Shown piece after piece: positions 34,801-59,436 of a stretch of 64,000 nucleotides of DNA. The translations under genes and the position numbers were made by a program. The notes below the pieces were generated by a model. That model saw nothing but the letters and a program-made list of their open reading frames with translations. It searched no databases and was not told the origin of the DNA. Numbering within the stretch: position 1 is the stretch's first letter; each line of letters starts with the position of its first letter. This stretch comes from Amaurobius ferox (Eukaryota; Arthropoda; Arachnida; Araneae; Amaurobiidae), in NCBI GenBank assembly GCA_951213105.1, contig OX578137.1:75181104-75245103 (forward strand), read 5' to 3'.

Positions 34801-37800
34801 TTCACATTGTAGTAGTTTCCTGTTTTCAGACATGGTACATTCTAACATTTACTTATAAATCCTAATATGAATGTTTAGATAGATGAAATGCTGGAAGACA
34901 AGTGATCATGTCGGAAACACTTGGGTTTCCTTCTTCAATGTGAGCAGGCCAGAAGCCTCTTCACATTTGGTATTTGACAAAAAGTTTGGTGCTAATACAA
35001 ACTTTTGCAGAATGCAGCAGATTAATTTTATTAAACTCATTGCTTGTTCATTGAACAGAGAAGTCAAACCCCTTAATTTTTTTTTTTAAATGATAGTTTT
35101 TGTATTTAGACTAAAATAATGCCTTATAATGTAGTTTTAAAGTTACTTTGGCCCATTAAAAACAAATAAAAGTGACATATTTCTTCCTCTATTGATCTAG
35201 TATCTTGTAAAAAGAATCACATGCTTAACATAACCTAAAAGCAGTTTGTGTTAATGTCAAATTAGGTTAAAAAAATCAGGCCCATGTCAAAAACCATGAC
35301 CCATATACCTCACTACTCCCTACTAATATAACTGAACATCATCACATGCATTTTCCTTTTGTATAAATTACAATACTTTTGGAATTTTTTTCTGCATATA
35401 CAATTTTTCAATCTATCTGATTGTTTACGTTATTGAGGTTAAATTGTAATCATTTATAATCATAAATTTCAAAATAATTGTCTTCATTCACAAGTTTTGA
35501 TTATACTACATATTGAACTACTACATATTAATTTTAACTTTTGAATTTTATATAATAAAGGTTCTATACTGAATTTAAAAAATATCATGTTTCTGTTTTG
35601 TAAACTAATAAATTCCTATGCAAATTGTCTTTGTTGGAAGGATGCCAAACATCTTTGAAATCAATCTTTATAAAACTAAGAAAGGTATACCAAATAAAAC
35701 TAATATCTAAAAAAGGCTTACACCGATGTTATCTAGAAAGGAGTATGTGTGAATGCGGTATGTTTGGAAAACTTGGATCTAAAACATTTTGTTTTTAATA
35801 TTGATCTACTTTTATATTAAGACTACTTAATGTAATTCTATTAATTTTTTTATTTAGAAAATGTAATATAAATTTTAAATTTATTCATATTTATTCTAAA
35901 AGGTTTTATTTTTTTTTATGATTTATTTTATTATCTATCATTATTGCTTTTTTTTTTCTGTGTACTTAATCATACTTATTTTCTACAGAGTTGCTCCTCT
36001 TAATACTGATGTACTGTATTTGAAACCTGAAAGAAGAAATGTGCAAGTATGCCTTCTTTTGTACATTTAAAAAAAAAATGTTAAATGAATTTATATTTAA
36101 AACCTGATATATATGATTTAACTTTGAAATCAGATTCATTAAGTGTGTCTTGTTTTATAATATAAGGAGCTGGTCTAATTGTGATTTTGAAACATATAAT
36201 ATTCCTTTTCCAATAAGATGTCACATTCTCAGAAGAAGATATAGAGGGATATAGGGGACACAAGAAGATGTAGGGGAGGATACAGTAGAATAATGTGAAG
36301 GAAATAACAATGGGAAATATTCATGAACTAAACTTGGTATACAAATGGGAAACTTGACTAATAAATATCTCCTTTGTCACATTTTTAAGTATACATAAAT
36401 TTCTACAAACATTTCTAAAAATAAGATGAAATAGATCTGAAAATAGGCACTCACTACAGGTCGATTAAACAACACAATTTGGCTATTAAATGAAACAACT
36501 AACCGGCCCACCTTCCCTATTCCACACTTTTTTGCCAAATGCTCCAGGTGTTCTTACTCCAAATTAGAGTGAATTTTTTTTCAATTTCTGGCATTGTATT
36601 CTCACTCCCTGTGAAAAGGAAACCAAAGGTTTGCTTTAAAAGTTCTGCAACAGTTCATAACCAAATTTCATCAGATTTGGCAACAACTATGCATGTGCAA
36701 GACTATAACTTTTAAACATTTCTGTACTACAATATCATTTTATGAGGATTAATTACAACAATGCATATTTTATTTAATATTAGGAAATGGACAAAAGAGC
36801 TAGACTCGAAGTTTGCTTGACTATAATCTGGAATGCTAGTAAATAACTTTTTTAAATTATCACTCTGTCATTTTTATTGAAATTTTATTATTTTCTGTTT
36901 GATTTTCTTGTGTTCTGTGATAAATATTTTGTCTGTGATAAATATTTTGTTCTTTTGTAGAAGCTAGAATTTAAAATTATTTATTTTTTTCACAGTTAAT
37001 CAAAGAAATTGCAGCCTTTCCTGATGCTGTCTTACCGGTTCCTGGCAGACAACATTCATCCATACAAACAGATCTCTACCTGGAGGAACTTTGTGATGTC
37101 ATTGAAGCAGCAGATGCTGAAAGTGAAACAGACCCTCTCTTAGATAGACCCCCATCTCCTCTTTTTATCCCTGCAAAATCTGGTCCAGATGTAGCAACAC
37201 AGATCTATCCTGGCGAAGTATGTTATAGTATGTACTAGTACAATGCCTGATTTGTAGTTTATAGAAGACAATACATGTGGCTATTGACGCCCCCTTCAAA
37301 ACATTTTAGAATTTGTGTACCATGAACAGTAAATGCATTTTTAAAGTATATAGAAAGTGTGTTAATGACACAGAATTCTACATGTATATAAATATTTATT
37401 TGATATAGTGATATAAATTTAACTGAAAATCACAGTAAATATTTTTTAAACTATATAGTAGCATCTTTTTCATTTTACTGGTATTCTCAGTTATTTAAAA
37501 AATCATTTTTCAATTTGAGAGTTTGATAATTTTTTTGAGAGTTTGAGATATGCTTTGTGAGTCTAAATCAGGACAAAGTACAAATTCATATATAATAATC
37601 CCTTTTATCAAGTCTGTTCAGAAATAATGAAGAAAGTATTATATGTTTCACAGTACAATATGTCCCCGGCCGTCCAACTGGTTACTCTAAGTCCTCTGGA
37701 CGAGTCGGACGGTCTGGGTCTTCAACAGTACAATATGTCCAAGAAACTTTTTAAACTGAGTTTTTAGTTTATGGAGTCATTAGAAAATAAGATTTATGGA

Positions 37801-38841
37801 AATTCGACTAGGACATGGGTTCATAAGTAGGGTTAGTATATGTTAGGGTGAAGTAAAAAGAAGGTAACTTTTGTTTGTTTTCTGTTTAGAAGTAACAATA
37901 AAAGCTGCCTTTTGATTATCTTATCAAAAAGTATATATATACAGGGTGTCCCAAAAACATTGACCTCGGCTTTTATTCCTTAAATATTGATCTTAGGCAT
38001 ACATAATAAATTACAAAGTTGCATAAAAAAAGGTACAGAATTTTTTGAAATCGATTAAAATTTTCAGAGGATTAAATTTGAAGAAATGCAAAATTAAAAT
38101 TTTTATACGGCCCCCTGTGCAAAAACATTTCCAATGAGTAAAATGTGCCCTATACACTAATAAGGTAATGTACAAAATTCCAGCATTTTATCATAAAAAT
38201 TCCCAGAGATATGAAAAGACAAAAGTGCTGACTTAAACCACTTTTCGATTCATCGACATGGGTTCGCAGTGGGGAAAAATTATGTCGGCAGATCGCGTTT
38301 CACGGGTCATGCACAAATTACGAAAGAAAACAATGGTTACATAAATAAATAATAATTTTGCTATTTAGTGGTACAAAAGTATCTACACTGTGTAGAAATA
38401 ATAACTTTACACAATTATTACAAAGCTTGTTCAAAATATTTTCCATCCATACCTATACAGAGCTGCATTCACCTGATAACAAGCCTATGATGCATTTCTG
38501 CATTGCATCATTTGCACTCTTGCTGTAAACATTTACATTTTAATTTATGATTAATCCCTCAACAACTTTGTTTAAACATATCTAGGACTTTTTATGATAA
38601 AATGCTGAAATTTTGTACATCACGTTATTAGTGTATGCGGCACATTTTAGGCATTGGAAATGTTTTTCTATGGGGGCCATATAAAAATTTAAATTTTGTA
38701 TTTCTTATAATTTAATTCCCTGAAAATTTTAATGGATTTCATTAAAATTCCGTACCTTTTTTTACGCAACTTTGTAATTTATTATACATGTCTAAGATCA
38801 ATATTTAAGGAATAAAAGCCAAGGTCAATGTTTTTGGACAC

Positions 38842-38891
<50 letters not shown>

Positions 38892-41800
38892 ATTACTTAT
38901 GTAGATAAAGCCTCTAATAATTATGCTATTATTTGTAAAAAATTCTATATTCAATATCTGCTAGATTATTTAAAAAATAATAGTCTATTTAAAATTGATT
39001 CACACTCTCTTAATAGTATCAAATTGAAAATTATCAATATGTATAGTGATTTAGATATTAATAATAAATTTTTGACATTTCCATATATTGTGCTTATACC
39101 TAAATTTCATAAAAATCCTATTAAATTTAGAACTGTTACTAGTGGTCATAATTCATACTCTACCACTGCTAGTAAATTATTACTAAATTATTTAAATGTA
39201 CTAAATAGCAATTTACGAGATTCTGGTGATAGCTACATTATTCTAAATAACAGTAAGGAATTAAAAAATAAATTAAAAACGCATGGTAAAATAATAGGAT
39301 TTCAAACTTTTGATTTTAAAGATCTATTTAATAATATTAAGATCACTGATCTATATGATGTCATTTTAGCTTTATATAATGCTTATATTACTAAACATTC
39401 TAATCTTACAAAATTTACCAATTTTCCTAAGCTTCTCCATTTTGTTCTTTTCAATAATTATATCTTTCAAGGTAATAAATTATACTTACAAGTCTCAGGT
39501 GTTCCACAAGGTGGCTGTAGTAGCAGTATGTTAGCTAATTTATACCTATATCATTATGAAAAATTCTTTACTTCAACTGATTATAAAATTTATAGATATG
39601 TAGATGATCTGATTTGTCTTGTATTTACTGATAACTATGTCATAGATATAGATTTCTATCCGGATAATTTGGAATTAATACCTAATGAAACTTCTATTAG
39701 TAATAATGTTTATTATTTGGATTTAAATCTAATTATAGAACCTGCTCATGGGATAGTTACTAAATTATATGATAAAAAAGATTTTTTTAAATTTAATATT
39801 AATAAATTATTACCTTTTAATTCCTGCAACTCGATTCAATTGTTTAGAAATATTATACTTAATCAACTTTTTAGAATTTATAGATTATCAGATAAAAAAT
39901 TTCATGCTTTGCACATTAATAACCTCAAAATTACCAGTAAAATGTATCAATATCCTGCATATTTAGTCAATAGTATAGTTAATAAGTTTCGATTAGCCTA
40001 AAATTCTCATATTCTCCCCTTATTATCTTATTTTAGCCGTACTTCTTCATTCTCCTGCAATTATATTTTCATCTTTTTATCTCGAAGCTTTAACAGTTGA
40101 ATAACTCATTTTATTGCTTTTGCGCAGTACTGTTTTTATTACTCTCTTTGGCAACAGCAAATCACATCTTTTCATTTTGGCATATGGCAACGATGATCCA
40201 GTCATATTTTGCTCGTCATGGTTGCGCTGAAGAGGTGCGTTTTGAGGTATTTATGTTTCCTTTATTGTTCCAATCTTTATGCTTGTCGTCCATATAACAC
40301 AAGTTTATAGATAAAATCTATCTTGTGTTTCAGAAACAAGCATTTTTGTGTTCATTTCGAAAAGATATATGGACCCGATGAGAATTTTTTCGAAATGAAC
40401 TTTTCGTAAGCCTAATCTCGTAAGCCTAAATCTCCTCCATGTGCAAGCTTTTTTGCTTGATTTTTTTGTTTTCTTATTTGCATTCCTCATTTTTGAAATT
40501 TCTTGATTGTCTTTGTCCTTATGACTTGCATTATGCTTTATTATTTCCTCTTGTATTTGTAGAAAATTTTGGAATAGTGTATTATGAGTTACTACATACA
40601 TTCTAACTTTGGATTTAATAATTTATTTTTATATTGAAAACATTTTATTTATTAGCTGCATTTGCGCAATAAATTAAATGTATATTGCATTGTCATTTAC
40701 ATTCTTATACTACACTGTTTAGTTTATCTAACTTTTCATTTATGAACTATCCTTATTCCTAATTCCTTTTGTATGCTTCGTATTAAAGAAACATTCTATT
40801 TGCTATCTATTCAAATTTATGCTGCATTTGCGCTAAATTTAGTAATAGAATTTATTTTAATTCATTTTAATTTTTTATTATGTATTACTTTCTCTACTTT
40901 CATCCATTGTTAATTGTAGTTTATTGTGGCTCATTCTCCTATTTTATTCTTTTCTTTTATTTGCATAGGTTACTTATTATATTTTTGCTTAAAGTATTAT
41001 TAATTATTGTCTTCCTTTCTGTTTTATTATTTGGTAAATATTTGTATTGCAATTATTCTTTAGCTATTAGTAATTTAATATTAGAATTTCCTTATTCTAG
41101 TGCTGCCATCTATCGTTTTTTAAAGCTAACTGCAAATTTTCTTCGCTATTAGTAATTAAATATTAGAAGTATCTTATTCTAGTGCTGCCATCTATCGTTA
41201 TTATTTCTTACTAATTTATTGGTTTTGTGTTTTTATGACTGGGTAATTGCAATTGGGATTTTTGTATTGATGTTATAGATACCTTTTATAAACTGTACTT
41301 TTTAGTGCAATCTTTTTATTACTTTTTTGGACAGGATTCTATGTGAATTCCAGATTTACACAGTATATATTTTATTATACCTTGTGTTTTAATTAATCTA
41401 GTTTAGAACTGATTATATTTATATTGTTAATCAATTCTTTTTATCTTGTAATATCCTACTTATTACATTTTATTAGGTTTACATGGACTTAGTTGTATAT
41501 ATTTTTATATATAAGCAATTATTTTATTTTTATTTATATTATTTATAAATGTTAATGCTATTCTCTTTATATTACTTTAACTCTTATGAATTACACATCT
41601 TATTTGATTTAGTGACTGGCAAATATATTTATTCTTGTTATTATATAATTTGATAAATATTGCCCGGTATTTACAATTTAGTTGGGAATTGTTTAGACCG
41701 TTATCATTTTACCAACAGTGTGCCATGGATTGTTTTGGATATAATAATTGCCCAGCTAAAAATTATAACTTCAATGAATGTAAGAATAAAAATTGTAAAA

Positions 41801-44800
41801 CCTGCCCATATGCTTCTAACTCACAAATTACTAATCTAAATAGTCATAAGACTTTCTGTAAAATTTTTAATTGCATCTACAAATTATCTTGTAATATATG
41901 TAATATATCTTATATAGGACAAACCAGTAATCCTATTCATCTACGTATGAATGTACATAGAGATCATGTTAAAAAATATGTCCACAATAATAATTTTCTT
42001 CCTACTTCTAATAAAATCGAATATAAACACTTTGCTCATCATGGTTTTGAAAATATAACTATACATATTTTGGACATTAAAATAAATACTGTTGATAGAT
42101 TATTCTTTGAAAACTTCTATATTAAATCACATTGTACTCTGTTTCCATATGGATTAAATCAGTTATATCTCAATGGTAATATTGTTAAGAATAATTTTGT
42201 AGATAATAAATATTCTATTTTTAATCACCTTTTTTTTAAACCTCTTTTACATAATAGTAAATTGGCTAAACTCAAAAGATTTAAACGCGGTAAAGGAAGC
42301 TCCTCCCAATATGATATTAAAGCGGAGATTAAAAGTATGCATCAACAATTCAATAACACATATCAATGGAAATTTATTAAATCATGGGTATTTGCAGTTA
42401 AGAAAAAACAATTAAACACAGTTTATGCTATTTTCTTAAAGTTAAATCTTACTAATGAACATTTTAATCATATTTTCTATGATTTGCTCATTACTAGATC
42501 AAAATATTTAAAAATAAAACTTAATCAATTTCATCATAATAACTGTTCCAATTCTTATTGTGTAATATCATTTAAGCATCCTATTTATAATTCCATAAAC
42601 TTTAAGAATTTATTTAATCAATTTCATCATTTATTGCCTGTAAAGGATTTGAATGTTACAAAAACTTTTAAATATAACAAGCCTATTGGAAGTACCATTT
42701 TTAATTACAATGCAATTTCAAAATCTCTCTCAGTTGACATAGATTCCTCAACAAATTTAGATGGTGAATGTATTTGTAGTGCTGATAATTATGCTGAATT
42801 TATAAATCCACAATTGGGTCATATAGTTACTGGAGACTTAGCCATTGTAAAAGATAAATCTTTAAGAACTATAATGTCATTTGGCACTAAATTCAGGTTA
42901 CCTTCATGTAATAATTCTAAACAAGTGTTAAAGTCAATCAATCTGGACCTTGATAAATTTATTTATGGATTAGCTTCTAAATATGCTCAGCCTTTAGAGG
43001 CATTTAATATGTGGAAATTTACTATTTTAAGATCTATTAAAAATACCATTTGTAGTATTAATTTATCTAGATCCATATATAATATGGATAATATAAAGCA
43101 TTCTGTTAATGATTTACATAGATCTTTTGTTATTACTTATGTAGATAAAGCCTCTAATAATTATGCTATTATTTGTAAAAAATTCTATATTCAATATCTG
43201 CTAGATTATTTAAAAAATAATAGTCTATTTAAAATTGATTCACACTCTCTTAATAGTATCAAATTGAAAATTATCAATATGTATAGTGATTTAGATATTA
43301 ATAATAAATTTTTGACATTTCCATATATTGTGCTTATACCTAAATTTCATAAAAATCCTATTAAATTTAGAACTGTTACTAGTGGTCATAATTCATACTC
43401 TACCACTGCTAGTAAATTATTACTAAATTATTTAAATGTACTAAATAGCAATTTACGAGATTCTGGTGATAGCTACATTATTCTAAATAACAGTAAGGAA
43501 TTAAAAAATAAATTAAAAACGCATGGTAAAATAATAGGATTTCAAACTTTTGATTTTAAAGATCTATTTAATAATATTAAGATCACTGATCTATATGATG
43601 TCATTTTAGCTTTATATAATGCTTATATTACTAAACATTCTAATCTTACAAAATTTACCAATTTTCCTAAGCTTCTCCATTTTGTTCTTTTCAATAATTA
43701 TATCTTTCAAGGTAATAAATTATACTTACAAGTCTCAGGTGTTCCACAAGGTGGCTGTAGTAGCAGTATGTTAGCTAATTTATACCTATATCATTATGAA
43801 AAATTCTTTACTTCAACTGATTATAAAATTTATAGATATGTAGATGATCTGATTTGTCTTGTATTTACTGATAACTATGTCATAGATATAGATTTCTATC
43901 CGGATAATTTGGAATTAATACCTAATGAAACTTCTATTAGTAATAATGTTTATTATTTGGATTTAAATCTAATTATAGAACCTGCTCATGGGATAGTTAC
44001 TAAATTATATGATAAAAAAGATTTTTTTAAATTTAATATTAATAAATTATTACCTTTTAATTCCTGCAACTCGATTCAATTGTTTAGAAATATTATACTT
44101 AATCAACTTTTTAGAATTTATAGATTATCAGATAAAAAATTTCATGCTTTGCACATTAATAACCTCAAAATTACCAGTAAAATGTATCAATATCCTGCAT
44201 ATTTAGTCAATAGTATAGTTAATAAGTTTCGATTAGCCTAAAATTCTCATATTCTCCCCTTATTATCTTATTTTAGCCGTACTTCTTCATTCTCCTGCAA
44301 TTATATTTTCATCTTTTTATCTCGAAGCTTTAACAGTTGAATAACTCATTTTATTGCTTTTGCGCAGTACTGTTTTTATTACTCTCTTTGGCAACAGCAA
44401 ATCACATCTTTTCATTTTGGCATATGGCAACGATGATCCAGTCATATTTTGCTCGTCATGGTTGCGCTGAAGAGGTGCGTTTTGAGGTATTTATGTTTCC
44501 TTTATTGTTCCAATCTTTATGCTTGTCGTCCATATAACACAAGTTTATAGATAAAATCTATCTTGTGTTTCAGAAACAAGCATTTTTGTGTTCATTTCGA
44601 AAAGATATATGGACCCGATGAGAATTTTTTCGAAATGAACTTTTCGTAAGCCTAATCTCGTAAGCCTAAATCTCCTCCATGTGCAAGCTTTTTTGCTTGA
44701 TTTTTTTGTTTTCTTATTTGCATTCCTCATTTTTGAAATTTCTTGATTGTCTTTGTCCTTATGACTTGCATTATGCTTTATTATTTCCTCTTGTATTTGT

Positions 44801-44862
44801 AGAAAATTTTGGAATAGTGTATTATGAGTTACTACATACATTCTAACTTTGGATTTAATAAT

Positions 44863-44901
<39 letters not shown>

Positions 44902-45054: not shown

Positions 45055-48000
45055 TGTATATATATATATATATATATTCTGTATATATATATATATATAT
45101 ATGTAATGTATGTGGAAATAATCCAGGGAAGAGACATTTTCACATAACCAAAATCTATTTTATTATATCACATTCAAAATAGATATAATTACATTGGACA
45201 GCCGAGCTCTGGTATCCAACTCTCAAGAAATCTTAATGCCGTCTTCATAGTTCTCTACAAGTACAAATTGCATTTATATTGGAGGGGGAGGGATGATATG
45301 AGGCATGTGGCTGCTGTCTTCGCGTTGATTAGGCTTTAAAAATGTGATTGGAATGCAGTTTCATATGAGAACATTTAAGATTAGTGACCATATATGGTAT
45401 GATCGAGGAAAAGAGGAAGTGTCTGCAGACCTGTTAATATTAGTGGCGTGGGATAGAATTTAATGAGGTTGCAGCATGTGCTGGACATGAGATAGGAATT
45501 TGGAAATATAATTGTGAAAGAAAAGGGCATGTTATTGGAATAGGCTTAAAATTTATGTATCATATATATGTATATATATATACTAGCCAAATACCCTTTG
45601 AAAATCAACGGTTTCTTAATAAGCAACACCCCTTTTGAACTATCTACCCATACACAATCTTCCTTTACAATGTCAATTTTTGAATAATCCGTGTTTCACA
45701 TTTATTCGGAAAATCGAATATTTTGGTGTGCAGAACCCTTTAAAGAAGAAAATATTGGAAAACATGTTGGGGGGGGGGGGGGGGAGAAAAGAAGAACTTT
45801 ATGATATACCAAAGAAAATAACATTCTTAATATTTCTGGAACATACCTAAACATGTAAAGTATCTAAAATCTGAAATAAATCTGGAAATGCGCCATTTGA
45901 TCAGTTTCTCCCTAAGTGTACAAATATGTACTCTTGTAAAATATTAAAAAATGGCACTTTCCTAAGAATAAAAAACATTAAAAGAAAAGAAAGAGAACAC
46001 AGATTTTAGGCTTTCAAAATCTAACGTTTATTAAAATTTAAACTTCATTTTAAAAGAATTTTCAAAACATTTTACATCTCATTAACTAGACAAATTAAAC
46101 ATCTTAAATAATTTAAATAAATTGAATTTATACAAAGGCCGGTCGTTTAGTGGTTAGTACAAACGTTAGAATATTAAATTTAAAGTTAATATGTTAAACT
46201 TATTCAATTATTTGTCAAAACTAGAATTTGGGATAAAAGAACATAAGTTAGCCAAAAGGGAATTTAGAACAAAATTTAAAACCTCAGGTTCAGGTGACCT
46301 AAAATATATAGGTCAAAAGGGGTCTTATTTAATGCTAACTCAATTAAACTTTAAAATAGTCTAAACCAACAGAAGCAATTAAAAATTAGCATTTAAAAGA
46401 TATCACCCGGATGTAGAGCCGTCATGGAACATGCTGGATGCATCAGATCCCAACAGATGAGACAAAGATGGAAAGGCAAAAGTCCAATGGAAAAGCAAAA
46501 GTCCAATGGAAAAGCAAAGATGGAAAGGCAAAAGTTCGCTTAAATACGAGGAAAACTATCCATTCCAGTCCAAAAGAAGGACCGTTCACACGACAGCAAG
46601 CTCCTCAACGTCATAAAATTTGATTAGCACAAACTCCAATCAACGATTTCTTCATCGGAACAATGGACACTTCTTTACTCATCAGTACTAAACGCCGAGC
46701 ATATAGTCCAGTAATCACATATGGAAATGCCGACTCAATACGTCATTTAAAGAATGCACACGGATAGCGATAAACAACCATTTAATTGGCGTCATAGCAC
46801 TTCTCAAATCTACAGGGCATGCGAGAACTTGTAGACGCAATAATTTCAGATGCTCTTGAATGTTTATAATAAACATCGCCTCCACGGCAGGAAAAACAGA
46901 TTGAAGATGCTACAACTTCATAACAGGTCAGACGTTTAATTAGCCGGGATTAACATTTTATTTTATACGCAGCGTTAAGAGTACGCACTTAAGTCATAGC
47001 AGGAAACTTGAATCGTTAGCTGAACATCGTAAATTAAAAGCGAACAAGATTAAAAGTCGCGAAAATAAAACATTCCACAGAATGTGTCTAACGGCACAGG
47101 AGAGCTTAATAGCTTACATCCTTTAGTTCTAATCAATAAGAAGAAGAGAAATGGAATTTCAAAGCAGACAAAAATTAAAAAGAAATGAAGTGAAACAATT
47201 TGGAAATATACGAATTCGGCAATAATTTAAATATGAACGATTCTGAAATATTTAAAAAGCTGAAAATAGAATAAAACTGAAAAATTGCAATGAATTAACG
47301 AATTTTTAACCGAGAGCAATAAATTTGGAATCAAATCAAAGGGAATAAAAAGGGCAATAAATGGAATTGCAAATTAGCCAATTTAAAAAAATTTAAATTG
47401 CTAAAACCTAAAAAGGAACAAACTTTCGCTGTTTTTAACACAAAACCTATGGAATAGAATATATTTGGAACAGAAGAATATCAAAACCAAAACAGTTGGA
47501 AAATGAATAACTAAAAGAGAATGACTATGTAAATAAGACCCCTGAACACGTTTAAATTAAAAACGAAATTCCTAAAATTATTAAATATCCAAAGGTATAA
47601 CCCAACAAACAACCCCTCCCCCCCCTTAAATAAACATTTTTGAAAATCTCCATTATTCTTGGGTTTTCTATCAGATGATTCACCTATATATGAAATATCA
47701 AGCTTCTATCACATTTTAAAAAGGGCATTTCTCCTTTATTTCGAAAATCGAACATTTTGGTGTGCGGCACCAGCTGAAGTAGAGAATATTGGAAAGCTGA
47801 AATTGTACATTTTCTTCCTTCCAAATTATCTACCTGTACACCAAATTTGGAATCTCTATCTCATCCCGAAAAATGCTTTTTATCATTTCATATTTCAAAT
47901 TTTTTTCTCTGGAGCACCCCCTTAATCGAACATTTCCGAGAAACTCTATTCGTCTTGGGTGTTTTCATTAAATAATTAGCCCATATACCAAATTTCAAGC

Positions 48001-51000
48001 CTCTATCAAAATTTAAATGGGAATTTCTCATTTATTCGGATAATCGAACAGTTGGGTTTGTGGCACCCCCTAAATTAGAAACTATTAGAAAACTGAAATT
48101 GCACATACTCTTCCTTTCGAACTATCTACCCATACACTAAATTTGAAGTCTCTATCCCATCCCGAAGCATAGTTTTTCGTCATTTCACTTTTTAAACGAT
48201 TTTCTCTGGAGCACCCTCTTCAACAAACATTTTTGAAAAACTCTTTTGTCTTGGGTGTGTTCTTGGGTGTTTTCAAATGATTCATCCATATACCAAATGT
48301 AAAGCCTCTTTCACATTTTAAAAAAGACATTTCTCCTTTATATTGAAAATCGAACATTTTCATGTGCAGTACCCCCTTAAGTAGAAAATATTGGAAAACT
48401 GAAATTGTACACTTTCTTCCTTCCAAAATATCTACCCGTACACAAGATTTGAAATCTATATCTCATTGCGAAACATGTTTTTTTATCAATTCACCTTTCG
48501 AACATTTTCCTCTGGAGAACCCCCCTTAAACAAACATTTTTGAAAAACTATATTCGTCTTGGGTGTTTTCATCAAATGATTAGTTCATATACCCAATTTC
48601 AAGCCTCTGTCAAATTTTAAAGGAGCCGTTTCTCATTTATTCGGAGAATCGAACATTTTGGTGTACGGCACCCCCCTTAAGCAGAAAATATTGGAAATCT
48701 GAAATTGCACACTTTCTTCCTTTCGAACAGTTTACCCATACACCAAATTTGAAGTCTATCTTATCGCAAAGCATATTTACCTATCATTTCACTTTTCGAA
48801 TGTTTTGGTGTGGAGCACCCCCTAGTGCATAAATCGATTAATATCTGTGCGTACAATCAAACCAGTAGCCATGAAATAGCACATAGTAAAATTAGCTTTC
48901 TATTAGCATAGTAAAACTAGTTCATGGGCCAATATATCCAAAAAGTGACTAGTGAAAGTTGTATATATATAACAATACAATTAACATTTTAAAATATAGA
49001 ATCGAGCCCAAAGGTCAAGTGCATGAATATAATACACACAACCCCAAAATTATTACTATTTATACACAAAGGTACTATAATGAAAAGAAGAATTTTAATG
49101 TTAATTAACATTTAAAGTTAGTCAAACATAAATAAATAAAAGATTGATAGCGTAAATATAGTTAAGAAGTATTAATTTTTTTTATAACATATCAGAGTAA
49201 TTTTAGCATTAATAATAGATAAGTAAATTAATTAAAATTTAATGAATTAACCCATTCACAACCGCTGAGTGAAGGAAGAAGCACTTCCGTGAGACCGTGC
49301 ATAACGAGAATCGTTTGCTGCTTCAGGCCCAAGCACTTTTTTGATGCTAAATCTAACGTGGCAAAATAATTGTATTTAAGCTTTGCTTTAAAATACATCT
49401 ACCATTATCACAGAAATACATTTGTTTTATTGCATTTTGAGGGACCTGACTTCATCATTGTTTTTCAAACGTGAGCCTTGAAAACCTGTTTGTTTTGTTT
49501 ATTATTACTTGTATAATATCGTCAATAAAATACAGATTAAAAAATAATTTTCTTTAAACGAGGCTTTGAACTGTTTATATTTAGTCCAGGGTTCATAAAA
49601 CTAAAAAGATAGCAGATCTTCGAAATTTGAATTCTATTTATCTGTACCCAAAGTATCAAAACATTATCCACCCACATTGATTCTTTTAAATAAATTTCTA
49701 CACTAAAGCACACAGTAACTATTTCACTTTCTTCACTATGAAATTCATTCATCAATTGTTAAATTTTACTTTTAGAAATATATTTTACTGTTTTTGTCAT
49801 GATTATTTCAATTCTTCTGACTAAATACTTACAAGCTTATATGCGCTCCCCCTGAAACCCAGTAATAAGAATTTTCAGCCCTAAGTATTTAAGAACTATA
49901 CATATCTATATATATAAAGAAAAAAAGTATGTATGTATGTATGTATGTATGTATGATCCAACATTAAGGGAGAACGGCTGAACCAAATTTGATGAAATTT
50001 GGTGGGTAGTCTTGAAATAGCCTCACTTAAAATTTAGTCCATGTTTTGAGTTTCTAACACCAGGTGTTGTCGCAATATTAATGAAAAACAAAACTTTTGT
50101 TTGTCTCATCATCACAGGAGAACAGCTGCACCAAATTTAATGAAATTTTGTGGGTAGCTTTGAATAGCCCCCCATAAATTTAGTCTAAGTTTTAAGTTTC
50201 TAAGACCAGGGGGGTTCTCGAGATATTAATGGATAACAAAACTTTTTCCTAAAACTTCTACTCCCTAACTCCATGATTCCCAACGAAAAATATGGAAATT
50301 GTTTGTTTAAAACATAGTCAATTAAATCGCTGAGTTTTGTGGGAGTTTATTGAAAATATTAGTCACTTTTGAAAATCGCAGGTTTGAAATATGAATTTAA
50401 ACGGAAGCTCTATAGTCATGGCTTATTTTCAGAGGCTTACTCAACAATGAAAAGTATTAAGAAATCAAAATTATTATTTAATTATTAGCATTTTATGAGG
50501 AAGATTCTTTCTTATATCATGACAAGTCATTTGACTCTGCAGTGGACACTGATGATGCCGTTAATTACCTACCATTCAGCTTCAAACGAGTCCAGTTCCC
50601 AGTTAGACTGGCATTTGCCATGACTATCAACAAAGCTCAAGGACAAACCCTTAAGTTTACAGGCATGAATTTAGAAAGTTCTTGCTTCTCTCATGGCCAA
50701 TTGTATATGGCATGCTCAAGAGTAGGAATTTCACAAAATTTGTATGTTTTAGCTCCGGGAGGTAAAACCAAAAATGTGGTTTACAAGCAAGCATTGCAGT
50801 AAAACGTAACAAATTAGGATAATATCATTTAATTTGTTAACATTTGCATTGTTGTCTAGCGCTTAAGAGTAAATTTAGTTTTCTTTTCAAACTGTACATA
50901 TTAACTGTACATCAATTATGGACACCTAATAATCACATTCCCAGACGTTGCCTGCCAGGGCCACCCTTCCATAGGACCTAGCTGCAAAGGGCATGCTGTA

Positions 51001-54000
51001 GGCATGCTGAAAGCAGCTATGACTTATATAATGCAATTATTTTTTTTTTTCTTACATAATGCAATGAATTTACTTCTTTCACAGTGAAAACACAATGTAT
51101 CAGATTCATGGCCCTATATGTTCTAGTGCAATTGTTATCAGAGTTTTGCATCATAAATCCCGAGCAATGTCGGGTAATCGCTGCTAGTAGGAAATTGTAT
51201 AGTAGCATAATATAACAAATACAAAGGGTGGCAAAATCTAATACAGTATACTAGAGTATAATATAATATTAAAATCTAAAGTACAAAGATATTATCTTGA
51301 TCAGCAGAGTCTGCACACTTCCCATGCTACGTTCAGCACTGCTGGTGGGACCTTCGTTAAAGTAGGTATTATTTCCCTCTCACAAACAGAATTGGATATT
51401 TCCAATTTTGAGCTACCACCTTTTTTTACATCTCTTCCAAACAAACATGAATGCATATGAAAAATGGGGTTAAATATTGAAACATATCAATGAGTAATAA
51501 AAACAGAATAAACAAAGTGCAAATTAATTGAACTTGAATATACAATATTTGCAATTTCTTGTATGAGAAAGTTCTTGCTCTTAGAAAATTTCAATGCTTT
51601 TTATCGAATCTTGTGAAAAGTTATTATATTCTACAAGCAATAATTGAGAACATTATTAGTTGTAAATCACTACTTTATTTTTTATAGTATGGATTATAAT
51701 TTATGACATCAATAGGACATATGCTTTAAACCATGCCTGCATTCACAGCCAAAATAAATTTTTCATAGTACATATCCAGGGATGTATCGAGAGAAATGTG
51801 AGTGGTGGTTGATTTTCCAGAATAAATATAATTGCGAATATATAATTTTGAAACAAGCTTCACGTTAATTCGCACACACAAACAGTATTAGTATTGTATA
51901 CTTTTATATTAAAGAAAAACATTTGATAAAATTGAATATAACTTTTTTTAAATGTAATTATAATATGTATAATTTTTTGGATGAGTGGTGGTCGGCAATT
52001 GAGTGGTGGTCGGAAATTCTGAGTGGTGGAAACCCCGACCACCGCCGACCACTGTAGATACATCCCTGCATATCTATATAACTAATAAATACTCGACATT
52101 TTTTATCCTGTGTTTAATCATCTTTATTATATTCTCTGTAGTTGTTTGATTTTGATGAAGAAGTGGAGCCATTATTAGAAGCCTTAGTAGGCCAAACATT
52201 AGAACAGGCATTAATAGAAATAATGGCAGAAGAAGAATTAGCTGTTATTGGTGACATGCAAGAAGATTATGAAGTTCGTAGAAATGTTGAGTTGGCAGAA
52301 CTAAAGCGCTTAGAAGAACATGAGCGAAGAATTTTTGAAGAAAGGGTAACTATAAATAATCAATCTAACATCCATTTTTCAAAGAAAAGTATTATAAGAT
52401 GTAAAAAGTTTTCCCATTCATATTATAAAATTTTAACGTACAAAACTGTGTAAAATATTAATGCTTTAAAAATTGCTAGCAAATATTTCTCTGAAAAGTT
52501 TTGTATTTTGAATGTAGTTTTAAAAATATATGTATATTCAGCCCCCATTGTGATAAAATTACTAATTCAATATATCTTCTTTTATATTTCAATCATCTAG
52601 TCTTTATATACTAAGAGTATGACTAGTAGAAAAGTGTAAAAAATAAATCTGAGTACTAAAACAACTCGCTACCAAGCAACTCTCACTTTAATTAAACATT
52701 ATTCAAAAAAATTTTGCTCTTATTTTGAATATGTAAAATTAGAATAAAAGTTGGTGATGGGGTGAGTATTCCTGAGAGCTATGCTGGTAGTAGCTTTGGT
52801 ATTGACAGGGTTTTACAAGCTGGACATGCTAAAGGTGAGGCTCCTGACAAAACGAGACATCCTTGTCATTTAAGTTTGGGGTTGGGCGTGAAGCTAACAA
52901 CTTTACCCTGTAAAAAAAATTCTTGTTGCAAAATCCAAAGAATAAAATTTTGAATTGCCTTTTGAGAAATGGACTGAAAAATGCTTTAAGGATGCGAGAT
53001 TTAATTTTTGGAATGTACTTTCTTTGTATCAGAGGGGCTTTCTTTGCTTTTCATGTGCTTATCGACAAGATTGATAAGAATAATATTGATCTAATGGCTA
53101 TCCAGGTAAAGAGATGGATTGATGAGGGAATTTCGGAAAAAAGAAATCATACTATATTCTACAGCTGTAATGAAAGCAAAACAACATATTTTTGGTACTA
53201 GTTTTATAATAAACAAGAAAGATCAATCATGCATAAGCATTGATTATGAAACACTTTCCAACTGAAATGTAATTTCATTTAAAAATTTCTAAAATGTGAT
53301 TCATTCAGTGGTAATATCTTTTACATTATCACAGTACTACAGTAATTTATTATACTTAAATATCTAAAACTGTATCGAAATATAAATCATCTGATTCTTT
53401 ATGCAAAATCAATGAATATTTCATTCATATAACTTGTATTCCAGACTCCAGAGCTAAATAATTTTGTGTGAAAAAAATTCAGCAATTCTTATGTAATTCA
53501 TCTTACAATCGCTTGAGATATTTGCATTCTGCATATGTTAAAATTAGGCTTCCTTGAAGAAATAATAAAAGTTTAGGGATCATTTAAAATCACAACTATT
53601 GTAATTGCATAGGCACGGAATTTAGATACACAGATAATACACAGATAATATATATGTGTATGTGTATGTACTCAAAGTATTGGAATCGTGCCGAAGATCG
53701 GAACTCGAATTTTCAAAGGATCTACACGTTTTGGGACTTCTAGAACACGAAAAAACTACTTTTAGGAAGACGTCTGTGTGTGTAAGGGTGTATCTGTGTA
53801 TGTTTCTGTGTGTCTGTGTGGATATTACATCCACTCTAATTGAAAAACTAATGGACCGAATTTCATACAATTTGGTAGGTATGTTTTTTGTGGGAAATCC
53901 TGATGTTCATTAGATTATAGTACGATTCGTAATAAAAGAATCTGCCTTCTTTGCGAAATGGCCGCAGAAATTGCCTTTATCCACTCTAGCTAAAAACTAA

Positions 54001-58200: not shown

Positions 58201-59436
58201 AACTTCTACCTTTTAGGAAACTTTCATAATTCTTAAAGATCCCCTTTTTTATAGTTAGGTTAATACATAGTTATATAAAAAATGGATTCTATATTATTTA
58301 CAATTTTTTTTTTCTGGTTTTAGAAGAGAAGGTTAAAAGAACAAGAAGAAGCTATTAAATTAGAAGATGAAGTAGCACAGAAAGTGGCTGCTTGTGTATT
58401 CTCTCAAAATTATTTAACACAGTTAGTTCCTCAGGTATATAAAAAGCTTGAAACTCAAGGATATTTTGAGACAGAAGATCCAGATATGAAGGGTAAGTTA
58501 GATTTATATGTTACTTGTAATGCATATATAAAATTAGCATATTTATTTTTAGACCAGCTTGCCGTTAATTATGGACTTCTAGGTCTGCCCTAAATTAATG
58601 AAACTGGTTTTATCATGGATGTAGAAAAAACTAAATGGATAATAAGCTATTATATGTGCTTCTCAAAATCATTACTATAAAGGCAAACAAAAAATCTTGA
58701 TTGAATGACATGAATGAGTTTTGTTGTAATGTTATAAAGTTGTTAAAAACAGTGATGGATTTACTATGAAGTTAACAAAGCTTAAGCTTTGGGGTCCCAG
58801 ATTTTAAAGACTTTTTAGTGTTGAGTACTTTTTATGTTTATCATATAGATTTGATGTCCAAATGACTATCTAAATTGTACATTACTTTAAAATGCTTTGA
58901 CCAATTTTGATAGTTTTTTTTTGTATAGTTATATCTCATTGAGATAGAAATTGTGACGAAGCCCAAATTTTGAACCTATAAATTTTTTTAATTGATTAAA
59001 AGTTAATGAATGTTAGCTCTATGGAAAATTTTTATTTGCATAAAAATACACGTACAAACAATAGAAAGCAATTTTTTGTTTACAATCATACCTTATTTCA
59101 ACATTGTTACTTCCCATTTCCTAGCACTTTTTGCATGTTGCACTCCACTCCAGTATGTGCAAGCATTTTATGAGATAGTCCCAGACAGCAAACCTAACTT
59201 ATATTTATGACTTAGAGGTGGGTGGCTCAAAGAGAGCCTAACACAGCGACCAGAGGTCTATTGTACTTTTATACTTATATTTAGTTTATAAGTTAAATAA
59301 AATACTGCATATGTATTTATACTTTTAATAATTTTGTCTATATTTGCAGAAATTGAAGAGGAATTTTGGCCATGGCTTTTGAATGAAGTAGATAGTGAAA
59401 TTGCCACTCTAGAAGCATCATACAATCTTCTTGACT
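31751..59436 (+). CDS. RSPH3: Radial spoke head protein 3 (partial gene, six exons)
   Basis: RSPH3/RSP3 is the stalk scaffold of axonemal radial spokes. It dimerises and anchors other spoke proteins (RIIa/DPY-30 domain partners) in motile cilia and sperm flagella. Exons: 31751-31866, 35989-36046, 36996-37217, 52142-52345, 58324-58492 and 59350-59436. Every intron is GT-AG and the joined frame is open for 285 codons. The match to vertebrate RSPH3 is strong from exon 3 on: SIQTDLYLEEL, DRPPSPLFIPAKSG, DVATQIYPGE, LFDFDEEVEPLLEALVG, RRNVELAELKRLEEHERR, FWPWLLNEVDSEI. A Glu/Arg-rich coiled-coil stretch spans exons 4-5. Exons 1-2 (INGNNMALDVVQ onward) are less conserved and rest mainly on phase. 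The start codon exon and the C-terminal exon(s) are missing. The 14.9-kb intron between exons 3 and 4 carries the Penelope-like element and other insertions, none of them in coding sequence. Confidence 0.92.
31867..35988. other. RSPH3 intron a-b
   Basis: Contains a G run (32056-32068), a single TIR-like terminus (ACAGGGTGACACAG near 32215), an AATG-repeat LINE tail and the LINE at 32695-34275. 34276-35980 is AT-rich with nothing recognisable apart from a short AT run at 34444-34460. Confidence 0.5.
32665..34275 (-). pseudogene. 5'-truncated RNase H-bearing LINE (I/Jockey-like)
   Basis: Minus-strand frames 34274-33573 and 33525-32854 belong to one ORF broken by a frameshift near 33590. The first gives the reverse transcriptase thumb (KARRIFWSCRNANGKTWGL, then YSMVICPIITYGSIIWW, then LDLIRFQRM). 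The second starts in the RNase H domain: WYTDDSK (first Asp), QAEVFAI (Glu), CSDNQAALLAL (Asp) and YWVPEHSGIPGNEMADELAR (His and last Asp). It ends with a Cys-rich tail (CRDCNYSKEAAAHILCECE). The 3' UTR runs to about 32695, followed by an (ATTC)n-type tail at 32665-32694. Endonuclease and most of the RT are missing. Related 3' fragments are at 13213 and 59216. Confidence 0.9.
35989..36046 (+). CDS. RSPH3: RSPH3 exon b (tentative)
   Basis: The acceptor is TTCTACAG and the donor GTATGC. It encodes VAPLNTDVLYLKPERRNVQ and ends in phase 0. Support comes from splice sites, frame continuity and position. Confidence 0.6.
36047..36995. other. RSPH3 intron b-c
   Basis: A 949-bp AT-rich intron. Nothing recognisable. 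Confidence 0.6.
36996..37217 (+). CDS. RSPH3: RSPH3 exon c
   Basis: Seventy-four codons with the conserved SIQTDLYLEELCDVIEAAD and TDPLLDRPPSPLFIPAKSG followed by PDVATQI. The acceptor is TTCACAG and the donor GTATGT. Phase 0. Confidence 0.95.
37666..37725 (+). mobile_element. 60-bp SINE-tail insertion with 15-bp target-site duplication
   Basis: The insert contains CGAGTCGGACGGTCTGGGTC and ends TTCAA. Its reverse complement resembles the tail of the SINEs near 56065 and 56465. It is flanked by CAGTACAATATGTCC at 37651-37665 and 37726-37740, a perfect 15-bp duplication. It is a very short 5'-truncated retroposition event. Confidence 0.85.
37942..38845. mobile_element. Long-TIR MITE, mariner-like ends
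   Basis: Starts CAGGGTGTCCCAAAAACATT and ends AATGTTTTTGGACACTCTG, with TA on both sides. The inverted arms are about 260 bp and roughly 85 percent alike by eye (shared AACTTTGTAATTTATTAT and TTATGATAAAATGCTG-type motifs). The ~380-bp centre is unrelated and has no ORF. The CAGGGTGTCC end and TA target fit Tc1/mariner-derived MITEs. Confidence 0.8.
38845..38888. repeat. (TA)n microsatellite at the Penelope-like insertion point
   Basis: About 40 bp of TA between the MITE end and the first base of the truncated Penelope-like copy. Confidence 0.9.
39024..40001 (+). pseudogene. Penelope-like reverse transcriptase, C-terminal fragment
   Basis: The 325-residue frame is identical to the C-terminus of the full-length protein. 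It has FDFKDLFNN, GVPQGGCSS and YRYVDDL. It lacks the N-terminal nuclease and has no natural start, so it is part of the truncated copy and not a gene. Confidence 0.92.
40285..40396 (+). ncRNA. Hammerhead-ribozyme-like motif, upstream copy
   Basis: Predicted layout: cleavage triplet GUC (40285-40287), stem I GUCCAUAUA (40288-40296) with UAUAUGGAC (40366-40374). The loop between them carries an internal hairpin (AACACAAG/CUUGUGUU). Then core CCGAUGA (40375-40381), stem II GAA-UUUU-UUC (40382-40391), then GAAA (40392-40395). Stem III would be only about 3 weak pairs (UGA with UUG). The consensus core is CUGAUGA, so the U4 position is C here. Hammerheads are known in Penelope-like LTR-like regions, commonly with very short stem III. 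Activity is doubtful because of the U4 change. Confidence 0.55.
40635..41724 (+). other. 5' region of the full-length Penelope-like element
   Basis: AT-rich, before the first ATG of the main frame. It contains a duplicated segment with CTAGTGCTGCCATCTATCG at about 41098 and 41181, and two GCTGCATTTGCGC motifs (about 40658 and 40824). A 90-codon hydrophobic frame starts at ATG 40880 (to 41152). It may be chance, given the composition. Confidence 0.5.
41725..44241 (+). CDS. Naiad-type Penelope-like element protein (GIY-YIG nuclease plus reverse transcriptase)
   Basis: An uninterrupted 838-codon frame from ATG 41725 (context GCCATGG); it is open from 41608 but no earlier ATG exists. Residues about 1-60 hold a Cys-rich stretch (CFGYNNC, CKNKNCKTC). 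About 50-125 form a GIY-YIG endonuclease: CIYKLSC, then SYIGQTS, then LRMNVHRDH, with a later Glu in LFFENFYIK. A long linker follows. The reverse transcriptase occupies the C-terminal ~330 residues: LIPKFHKNP, FDFKDLFNN near 608-616, GVPQGGCSS near 673-681 and YRYVDDL near 703-709. Canonical Penelope elements have the nuclease at the C-terminus; here it is N-terminal, the permuted order described for Naiad/Chlamys elements. The intact frame and identical flanking repeat suggest recent insertion. It sits in the sense direction inside an RSPH3 intron. Confidence 0.93.
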   Translation: MDCFGYNNCPAKNYNFNECKNKNCKTCPYASNSQITNLNSHKTFCKIFNCIYKLSCNICNISYIGQTSNPIHLRMNVHRDHVKKYVHNNNFLPTSNKIEYKHFAHHGFENITIHILDIKINTVDRLFFENFYIKSHCTLFPYGLNQLYLNGNIVKNNFVDNKYSIFNHLFFKPLLHNSKLAKLKRFKRGKGSSSQYDIKAEIKSMHQQFNNTYQWKFIKSWVFAVKKKQLNTVYAIFLKLNLTNEHFNHIFYDLLITRSKYLKIKLNQFHHNNCSNSYCVISFKHPIYNSINFKNLFNQFHHLLPVKDLNVTKTFKYNKPIGSTIFNYNAISKSLSVDIDSSTNLDGECICSADNYAEFINPQLGHIVTGDLAIVKDKSLRTIMSFGTKFRLPSCNNSKQVLKSINLDLDKFIYGLASKYAQPLEAFNMWKFTILRSIKNTICSINLSRSIYNMDNIKHSVNDLHRSFVITYVDKASNNYAIICKKFYIQYLLDYLKNNSLFKIDSHSLNSIKLKIINMYSDLDINNKFLTFPYIVLIPKFHKNPIKFRTVTSGHNSYSTTASKLLLNYLNVLNSNLRDSGDSYIILNNSKELKNKLKTHGKIIGFQTFDFKDLFNNIKITDLYDVILALYNAYITKHSNLTKFTNFPKLLHFVLFNNYIFQGNKLYLQVSGVPQGGCSSSMLANLYLYHYEKFFTSTDYKIYRYVDDLICLVFTDNYVIDIDFYPDNLELIPNETSISNNVYYLDLNLIIEPAHGIVTKLYDKKDFFKFNINKLLPFNSCNSIQLFRNIILNQLFRIYRLSDKKFHALHINNLKITSKMYQYPAYLVNSIVNKFRLA
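44525..44636 (+). ncRNA. Hammerhead-ribozyme-like motif, downstream copy
   Basis: Exact repeat of the motif at 40285-40396, shifted by 4,240 bp: GUC at 44525-44527, core CCGAUGA at 44615-44621, stem II at 44622-44631, GAAA at 44632-44635. With both copies in one transcript, cleavage at the two sites would release a 4,240-nt unit, if the ribozyme works. Confidence 0.55.
44870..45110. repeat. TA microsatellites flanking the Penelope-like element
   Basis: TA runs at 44870-44899 and 45019-45102, the second interrupted by TATTCTGTATA motifs. The ORF-like frames over them are low-complexity artefacts. Confidence 0.85.
45110..45581. other. Unassigned stretch
   Basis: Mixed composition with a GGAGGGGGAGGGATG patch near 45283. 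No frame or repeat recognised. Confidence 0.4.
45583..45760 (-). mobile_element. Helitron-like 3' end with one ~148-bp repeat unit
   Basis: On the minus strand: a hairpin near 45611-45594 (CCGTTGA / TCAAAGG), then TATTTGG and CTAG (45586-45583), followed by T. Next to it lies one diverged ~148-bp unit with ATCTACCCATACAC, TTTATTCGG and ATTTTGGTGTGCAG. It is the inverted counterpart of 12130-13160. Confidence 0.6.
45766..47632. other. Unassigned A-rich insertion between repeat-array parts
   Basis: It starts with a G run (45768-45783). The rest is A-rich and non-coding. It has a small tandem repeat at 46465-46530 (GGAAAAGCAAAAGTCCAAT) and a GC-richer part at 46600-46950. It separates the terminal unit at 45583 from the array at 47633, so it probably interrupts that element. 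Class unknown. Confidence 0.4.
47633..48824 (-). repeat. ~296-bp higher-order tandem array (two ~148-bp half-units)
   Basis: Four long units start near 47634, 47930, 48226 and 48533. Each is two related halves of about 148 bp. Both halves share ACCAAATTTGAAGTCT/ATTTCAAGCCTCT, TTTCTC/TATTTATTCG and CGAACATTTTGGTGTGC followed by GGCACCCCCCTTAA. The first halves keep ATTCGTCTTGGGTGTTTTC. The second halves keep ATTGGAAA-CTGAAATTGCAC. Same family as 12130-13160, opposite strand. ORFs inside are artefacts. Confidence 0.85.
48825..49904. other. Intron sequence without recognised features
   Basis: AT-rich; no exon or repeat recognised. The short frame at 49537-49755 has no support. Confidence 0.5.
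49905..51187 (+). mobile_element. Helitron, internally deleted
   Basis: The 5' end TCTATATATATAAAGA follows an A. The 3' end is a hairpin CCCGA-GCAATG-TCGGG (51159-51174), then TAATCGCTG and CTAG (51184-51187), followed by T. These are the canonical Helitron termini inserted between A and T. A GTAT microsatellite (49928-49955) lies near the 5' end. The copy keeps only the C-terminal helicase segment (50542-50802); Rep and most of the helicase are missing. Confidence 0.8.
50542..50802 (+). pseudogene. Helitron Pif1-like helicase, C-terminal fragment
   Basis: Eighty-six residues with PFSFKRVQFPVRLAFAMTIN, KAQGQTLKFTGMNL, FSHGQLYMACSRVG and LYVLAPGGKTKNVVY. This is the late Pif1 helicase motif block of Helitron RepHel proteins, with a natural stop. 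The frame extends open upstream to about 50485 without an ATG. Helicase Walker motifs and the HUH Rep domain are absent. Confidence 0.92.
51777..52068. mobile_element. hAT-like MITE just upstream of RSPH3 exon d
   Basis: Starts CAGGGATGTATCGAGAG and ends GTAGATACATCCCTG. The terminal 12 bp CAGGGATGTATC are perfectly inverted. GAGTGGTGGTCGG repeats several times near the right end (51982-52035), matching CGACCACCGCCGACCACT there. It is flanked by CATATC on both sides (51771-51776 and 52069-52074). That is shorter than the usual 8-bp hAT duplication, so the superfamily is uncertain. It ends 73 bp before exon d. Confidence 0.8.
52142..52345 (+). CDS. RSPH3: RSPH3 exon d
   Basis: Sixty-eight codons: LFDFDEEVEPLLEALVGQTL, then EQALIEIMAEEELAVI, then YEVRRNVELAELKRLEEHER. 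The acceptor is TCTGTAG and the donor GTAACT. Phase 0. It is the best conserved exon. Confidence 0.97.
54038..54105. repeat. Near-perfect inverted repeat, ~30-bp arms
   Basis: The left arm starts AATAACCTACAAGTGATTTA and the right arm ends TAAATCATTTGTAGGTTATT. They differ at about two positions across 30, and the loop is about 8 bp. It lies within a repeat-like region. Confidence 0.75.
55196..55234. repeat. (ACAG)n microsatellite
   Basis: About nine to ten tandem ACAG units following CTAACGG. Confidence 0.9.
56058..56440 (-). mobile_element. Chimeric 5S/tRNA-headed SINE, second full copy
   Basis: Same layout as 14520-14897. On the minus strand the 5S-like part is 56440-56323 (118 nt; GCCAACGACCCTACCGTGC ... 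TGTTGGC). Then come GCGGTAGCCCGGTGG, the common body and a tail ending GTCTGGGTCTCAACAACAAC. The (CAA)n tail runs into a C-rich run on that strand. It is inserted in the LINE, so it is younger. Confidence 0.88.
56441..56530. mobile_element. SINE-tail-related fragment
   Basis: TCGAAAGCCCAGGCC, ATCCGACTCGTCCTAGGA and CTCAGAGCAATTAATTGG resemble the reverse complement of the insert at 37666-37725. It lies between two SINE copies. Confidence 0.5.
56531..56697 (-). mobile_element. Same SINE family, 5'-truncated copy
   Basis: From the (GTT)n/(CAA)n tail to CACCAACCTCTG it matches 56058-56212 closely. The whole head and most of the body are missing, a 5' truncation. Confidence 0.85.
58324..58492 (+). 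CDS. RSPH3: RSPH3 exon e
   Basis: KRRLKEQEEAIKLEDEVAQK, then VAACVFSQNYLTQLVPQVYK, then YFETEDPDMK. The donor is GTAAGT, ending in phase 1. An alternative acceptor three bases later would drop one Lys. The upstream T run is a strong polypyrimidine tract. Confidence 0.93.
58493..59349. other. RSPH3 intron e-f
   Basis: An AT-rich intron. Its only recognised content is the LINE 3' end remnant at 59216-59270. Confidence 0.6.
59216..59270 (-). mobile_element. LINE 3' UTR remnant
   Basis: GGTGGGTGGCTCAAAGAGAG, CGACCAGAGGTCTATTGTAC match the 3' UTR of the LINE at 32695-32750 (GGGTGGCTCCAGGAGAG, CGACCAGAGGTCTGTTGTAC). A very short 5'-truncated copy. Confidence 0.75.
59350..59436 (+). CDS. RSPH3: RSPH3 exon f
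   Basis: EIEEEFWPWLLNEVDSEIAT and LEASYNLLD correspond to the family's GFLPWLMNEVEKTM region. The acceptor is ATTTGCAG and the donor GTATGT. It ends in phase 1, so at least one further exon is required. Confidence 0.92.

Follow-up and report, generated by a model that had tools for sequence, protein, structure and literature searches.

What kind of retroelement lies in what looks like an intron of RSPH3 in the spider Amaurobius ferox, and how did it come to stand there in two head-to-tail copies? We analysed a window of 64,000 nucleotides of contig OX578137.1 (assembly GCA_951213105.1, positions 75,181,104 to 75,245,103 of the forward strand), in which positions are counted from the first letter. 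At 38888–44874 the window holds a Penelope-like element (PLE) whose GIY-YIG endonuclease (EN) precedes its reverse transcriptase (RT), the permuted order. We are largely confident that an autonomous PLE with an N-terminal EN has recently inserted here into a (TA)n tract of the RSPH3 intron, and that it belongs to a Naiad-like lineage whose RT lacks the insert between motifs A and B.

The element encodes one intact EN–RT protein

The full-length unit measures 4,240 bp by self-comparison (40635–44874) and lies, like all parts of the element described below, on the forward strand. Repeat boundaries and the limits of the open reading frame (ORF) divide it into a 5′ untranslated region (UTR; 40635–41724), the ORF (41725–44241) and a 3′ UTR (44242–44874). 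The 5′ UTR contains an 82-bp tandem repeat in 1.8 copies (41048–41199). The ORF is intact, opening with an ATG at 41725 in the context GCCATGG and running for 838 codons to a stop that ends at 44241, with no in-frame UGA; the mechanical ORF, which starts at a TTG, is 868 amino acids long.

An earlier note on this stretch had placed GIY-YIG motifs at the N terminus of this frame and GVPQGG and YVDD at its C terminus, an assignment that domain searches and residue positions confirm. The EN occupies residues 45–150 (41857–42174) and has the catalytic residues Y52, Y63, R74, E129 and N145, together with a CCHH set (C56, C59, H78 and H102). The RT core follows at residues 468–800 (43126–44124), as delimited by a PF00078 match (E = 3.8e-9), the predicted structure and the alignment; motif A contains D610, motif B (GVPQGG) lies at residue 672 and motif C (YVDD) at 705, with its two aspartates at 707–708. 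A CxC motif, C349-I-C351 (42769–42777), stands in the linker between them. The ORF thus combines a GIY-YIG nuclease with a telomerase-like RT, as in PLEs, with the EN placed before the RT. In the predicted structure (mean predicted local distance difference test score, pLDDT, 89.9), residues 47–150 match I-TevI and the closest solved fold to residues about 317–838 is telomerase, a comparison that bears mainly on residues 317–838. We regard the element as a real, young and apparently intact permuted Penelope that may still be active.

The RT lacks the insert between motifs A and B

A search with the A. ferox protein returned 92 related proteins, none informatively named. One of these, P0092, is a Penelope with a C-terminal EN, and a search with it supplied the canonical set (662 matches, of which the best 120 are listed). 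The A. ferox protein and the 91 relatives other than P0092 make up a permuted alignment of 92 rows. All five EN positions are filled and the RT aspartates present in 68 of the 92 rows; exactly YYREN occurs in 66, with CCHH as well in 64, and part of the EN is missing in 19. Both cysteines of the CxC motif are found in every row (92 of 92). A search of viral contigs returned no relative of the element.

The distance between RT motifs A and B is 62 residues in the A. ferox protein and 60–64 in all 12 rows of the clade that it forms with P0001–P0011. It is 60–70 in P0012–P0015 and 81–96 in 68 of the 76 further rows, the remaining 8 not being measurable; in one of the 68, P0070, a proper motif B or C is missing and the value is unreliable. 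Among canonical PLEs the distance is 57–61 (28 of 28 aligned). The model of a long relative, P0022 (pLDDT 87.9), shows the insert as three short strands (704–726) between two helices, and the A. ferox model has only a short loop (638–646) at the corresponding place. Motif B also marks this clade: it reads PQG in 11 of the 12 rows (PMG in P0010), a form absent from the remaining 80; the long relatives have PMG and the 28 aligned canonical proteins [AS]MG. PQG is the form found in TERT too.

The RT tree, from which the A–B region was left out, comprises the A. ferox protein, 42 of the 91 permuted relatives and 28 of the 120 listed canonical proteins; none of the 49 permuted relatives left off it has PQG. 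Permuted and canonical proteins split at 100/100, and an EN tree of 40 N-terminal and 30 C-terminal rows, which has few columns (103) and three long branches, separates the two kinds at 100/99. Both trees therefore set the element apart from Penelopes with a C-terminal nuclease, as the earlier reading of a permuted element demanded. The A. ferox clade of 12 members is supported at 100/100 and is joined by P0013 and P0014 at 100/92, while the 27 insert-bearing rows form one clade at 90/93, below the tool's star. Some pull by composition on the A. ferox clade is possible, since eight of the nine rows flagged for odd letter make-up lie in or beside it.

These traits bear on the name of the element. 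Craig et al., in 2021, reportedly described N-terminal-EN PLEs (Naiad and Chlamys) with a CxC between EN and RT and, separating RT motifs A and B, an insertion in the fingers (IFD), which is said to have served as an argument for linking permuted Penelopes with telomerase. We take the insert of the long relatives to be the same IFD. Naiad endonucleases are said to carry the CCHH that Chlamys lacks, and spider Naiads to be selenoproteins. Compared with these descriptions, the A. ferox element resembles Naiad in its permuted order, CxC linker and CCHH, in its microsatellite target and partial tandem (see below), and in having no Rfam hammerhead, although a hammerhead-like fold with a U4C core exists in its 3′ UTR (see below). 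It differs in the missing insert and in its PQG motif and, from the spider Naiads, in its lack of an in-frame UGA; with Chlamys it shares the permuted order but not the loss of CCHH. As far as sequence can tell, the label Naiad-like is supported, resting as it does on reported Naiad traits checked on relatives without names. The earlier note had called the element Naiad-type: the domain order, CxC and CCHH bear this out, but the A–B insert, carried by most permuted relatives and reported as a trait of N-terminal-EN PLEs, is missing, and we therefore prefer to class the element as a relative that falls outside the permuted group with the insert.

It is quite possible, if a little short of probable, that the element is instead an ordinary member of the published Naiad set; Naiads would then be variable in the A–B region and this clade would already have been included by the authors. 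The Naiad traits listed above would suit such a member, and an approximately unbiased (AU) test at the permuted base did not reject a single clade of all 16 short rows (p = 0.163). What speaks for a separate position is the gap between 60–70 residues, in the 12 clade rows and P0012–P0015, and 81–96 in the 68 measurable others, the restriction of PQG to the clade, and the finding of only 11 clade relatives among the 92 proteins. An Orthoptera transposable-element library lists both PLE/Naiad and PLE/Chlamys.

The element is of a kind already known, its RT being a clear variant, and comes from a little-sampled branch without a piece that its better-sampled relatives have. The closest solved fold of this RT is still telomerase, although the insert is missing; in contrast to telomerase, the element codes for an endonuclease, and no insert of IFD size stands between its motifs A and B. 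It can now be tested whether the insert arose a single time within the permuted Penelopes or disappeared in the A. ferox branch. A PLE protein shown to be active in vitro has the canonical domain order (PMC11167929), which makes an intact, young and short permuted Penelope of the PQG type a good starting point for biochemistry.

Two unrelated deubiquitinase-type domains were seen among the proteins compared, one in each Penelope branch: a ubiquitin hydrolase domain (PF00443) in the permuted P0039, near the C terminus, and P0043 (precomputed list), and an OTU protease domain (PF02338) in the canonical P0092 and P0098 (the latter from the precomputed list).

A partial tandem inside a (TA)n tract

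Directly upstream of the full-length unit lies a 5′-truncated copy (38888–40634) with the C-terminal part of the ORF and the 3′ UTR. The earlier note had described the last 1,746 bp of the element as repeated there, and 38889–40634 is indeed exactly 43129–44874; blastn extends the match to 1,747 bp (38888–40634 against 43128–44874), with 0 differences (100% identity) and a period of 4,240 bp. Divergence between the copies is below about 0.17% (rule of three on 0/1,747), not the several per cent of an old insertion, and their identity supports the recent insertion that had been proposed. An open frame of 401 codons (38796–39998) begins in the (TA)n itself and continues through the truncated copy, reading IYIYIY... 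into the RT.

A tandem-repeat scan places (TA)21.5 on the 5′ side of the insertion (38846–38888) and (TA)15 on the 3′ side (44870–44899). The element ends in TATAT, which leads into the downstream tract, and the same TATAT (40630–40634) is all that precedes the 5′ UTR at the internal junction at 40634; no long TA tract separates the copies. Which end of the unit is called the last is a convention, and it is just as valid to regard the truncated and full copies as one 4,240-nt repeat that runs for 1.41 turns. Partial tandems are expected of PLEs: the canonical anole PAc (PMC11167929) and Adineta Pen2 (PMC3846280), whose EN is C-terminal but which likewise join GIY-YIG and a telomerase-like RT in one ORF, share with the A. 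ferox element the AT-rich target and the partial tandem with a 5′-truncated copy. No other Penelope remnant was found in the window (0 of 431 tblastn pieces of P0001–P0211 outside 38800–44900).

A single event from a head-to-tail template would account for the perfect identity of the copies, the TA tracts outside them and the absence of a long one between them. In the mechanism that we propose, the element's only protein would bind the RNA that encodes it, the folded 3′ UTR being the likeliest handle, and its GIY-YIG domain would nick (TA)n DNA, as the active-site residues and the flanks suggest. The TA-repeat end would probably anneal to UAUAU at the 3′ end of the insertion, and the telomerase-like RT would copy the RNA from the nicked end. 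As template we envisage a head-to-tail RNA, which would be circular or else transcribed from a tandem source copy; copying would stop after 1.41 units, leaving one full and one 5′-truncated copy.

Several points weigh against this account. Any target-site duplication is hidden by the microsatellite flanks. In vitro, the site at which the RT of a PLE begins copying shares no homology with the cut DNA (PMC11167929), which is at odds with priming by TA annealing. The identity of the copies could also stem from an assembly error inside the (TA)n or from gene conversion. In the first case, a single full-length insertion would have had its 3′ part duplicated by a misjoin; one breakpoint does fall inside the (TA)n and the copies are identical, as a misjoin would leave them. 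We nevertheless think such an artefact very unlikely, because the truncated copy begins abruptly in coding sequence beside the (TA)n and runs at its 3′ end into the 5′ UTR of the full copy, the partial-tandem layout of other Penelopes (PMC3846280). Direct repeats in cis are able to convert, and an older insertion could in that way have kept two identical copies; yet the ORF outside the repeat (41725–43127) is intact too, and none of the 1,747 sites differs right up to the repeat ends, which makes conversion most unlikely.

A folded 3′ UTR with a hammerhead-like alternative

Only two of the 120-nt windows tested along the 3′ UTR, together covering 44482–44641, fold with z < −2. The stronger (44522–44641, z = −3.5; copy at 40282–40401) is predicted to form two long hairpins. 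The same stretch could take up a hammerhead-like alternative fold of type III (44523–44638, would-be cleavage at 44527/44528), as could the upstream copy (40283–40398, would-be cleavage at 40287/40288). Three stems, an NUH site with C17 at 40287 and GAAA are present, stem I having nine Watson–Crick pairs and stem II three; stem III is weak, with two of its four pairs wobble, and the core reads CCGAUGA, one change (U4C) from CUGANGA. A type I reading was rejected, stem I failing by eye and the two scored matches at the site both being type III.

We consider it unlikely that this fold acts as a hammerhead ribozyme, cleaving tandem transcripts to give units of 4,240 nt. Our descriptor had exactly two matches on both strands of the window, at the same place in both copies; 1,295 simulated windows gave a mean of 0.017 matches, none with so long a stem I, and 30 of 20,130 simulated units reached the observed score when a single departure from CUGANGA or GAAA, of whatever kind, was tolerated, so that a fit this good would seldom arise by chance. 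These simulations keep neighbouring-base frequencies only and do not model a hairpin-rich UTR, and we drew up the descriptor and both scoring schemes with the candidate already in view. Rfam scans gave no hammerhead match and only sub-threshold matches to other families, and a plain hammerhead pattern matched 10 times in the window (3.5 expected), never in the element. The hammerhead conformer, at −23.0 kcal/mol against −38.9 for the competing hairpins, is 16 kcal/mol less stable. N-terminal-EN PLEs are not known to carry canonical hammerheads.

The literature cuts both ways. According to PMC3088659, U4C considerably lowers hammerhead activity in vitro, whereas a natural viroid hammerhead with this change retains sufficient activity in vivo, and weak stems III are reported there as common. 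In the absence of its protein, no cleavage was observed with the hammerhead of anole Poseidon (PMC11167929), and this, together with the viroid case, keeps the idea alive. In a fuller version, which we hold to be distinctly unlikely, the U4C type III hammerhead would be held off by the hairpins, and perhaps switched on by the protein; it would cleave tandem transcripts to units of 4,240 nt, which may form circles, rolling copying then giving the 1.41-unit insertion. In that case a ribozyme not known from N-terminal-EN Penelopes would have been retained or reacquired in them.

The predicted RSPH3 intron and repeats of the window

Open frames with RSPH3 exons lie on the forward strand at both sides of the element, so that it appears to sit in sense inside a predicted intron of about 15 kb, as the earlier note had proposed. 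The upstream frame (36975–37235) ends its exon in ...DVATQIYPGE at about 37194–37217 and was recognised by pattern and frame; its placement in RSPH3 was read by eye, and a query of the joined exons fits. Downstream frames at 52142–52450 and 58324–58590 match PF06098 (E = 7.8e-27 and 4.8e-10). The joined query gave 851 matches at E 1e-10 or better, of which the best 120 are listed. At the top of these stand two proteins without a name (75% and 64%); the closest named RSPH3 proteins are those of the spiders Trichonephila (69%), Nephila (69%), Larinioides (68%), Caerostris (67% and 66%) and Uloborus (66%). Further matches among those listed include two proteins without a name (61% and 59%), the spider Oedothorax (54%), and after it a fish (48%) and Limulus (45%). 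By this order of matches alone, a spider is the most likely host.

An older foldback element with terminal inverted repeats (37932–38855; arms 37932–38210 and 38578–38855, 88.6% identical) immediately precedes the (TA)n into which the Penelope inserted. At its right end it extends into that TA tract, so the target may have come from this older element. Related repeats, about 76–87% alike and some in opposite orientation, occur at 12363–13105, 45671–45763 and 47620–48823. Elsewhere in the window we noted a retroelement remnant with RNase H (PF00075; 32857–33612, reverse strand) and a transposase remnant (PF13843; 18028–18546, forward strand).
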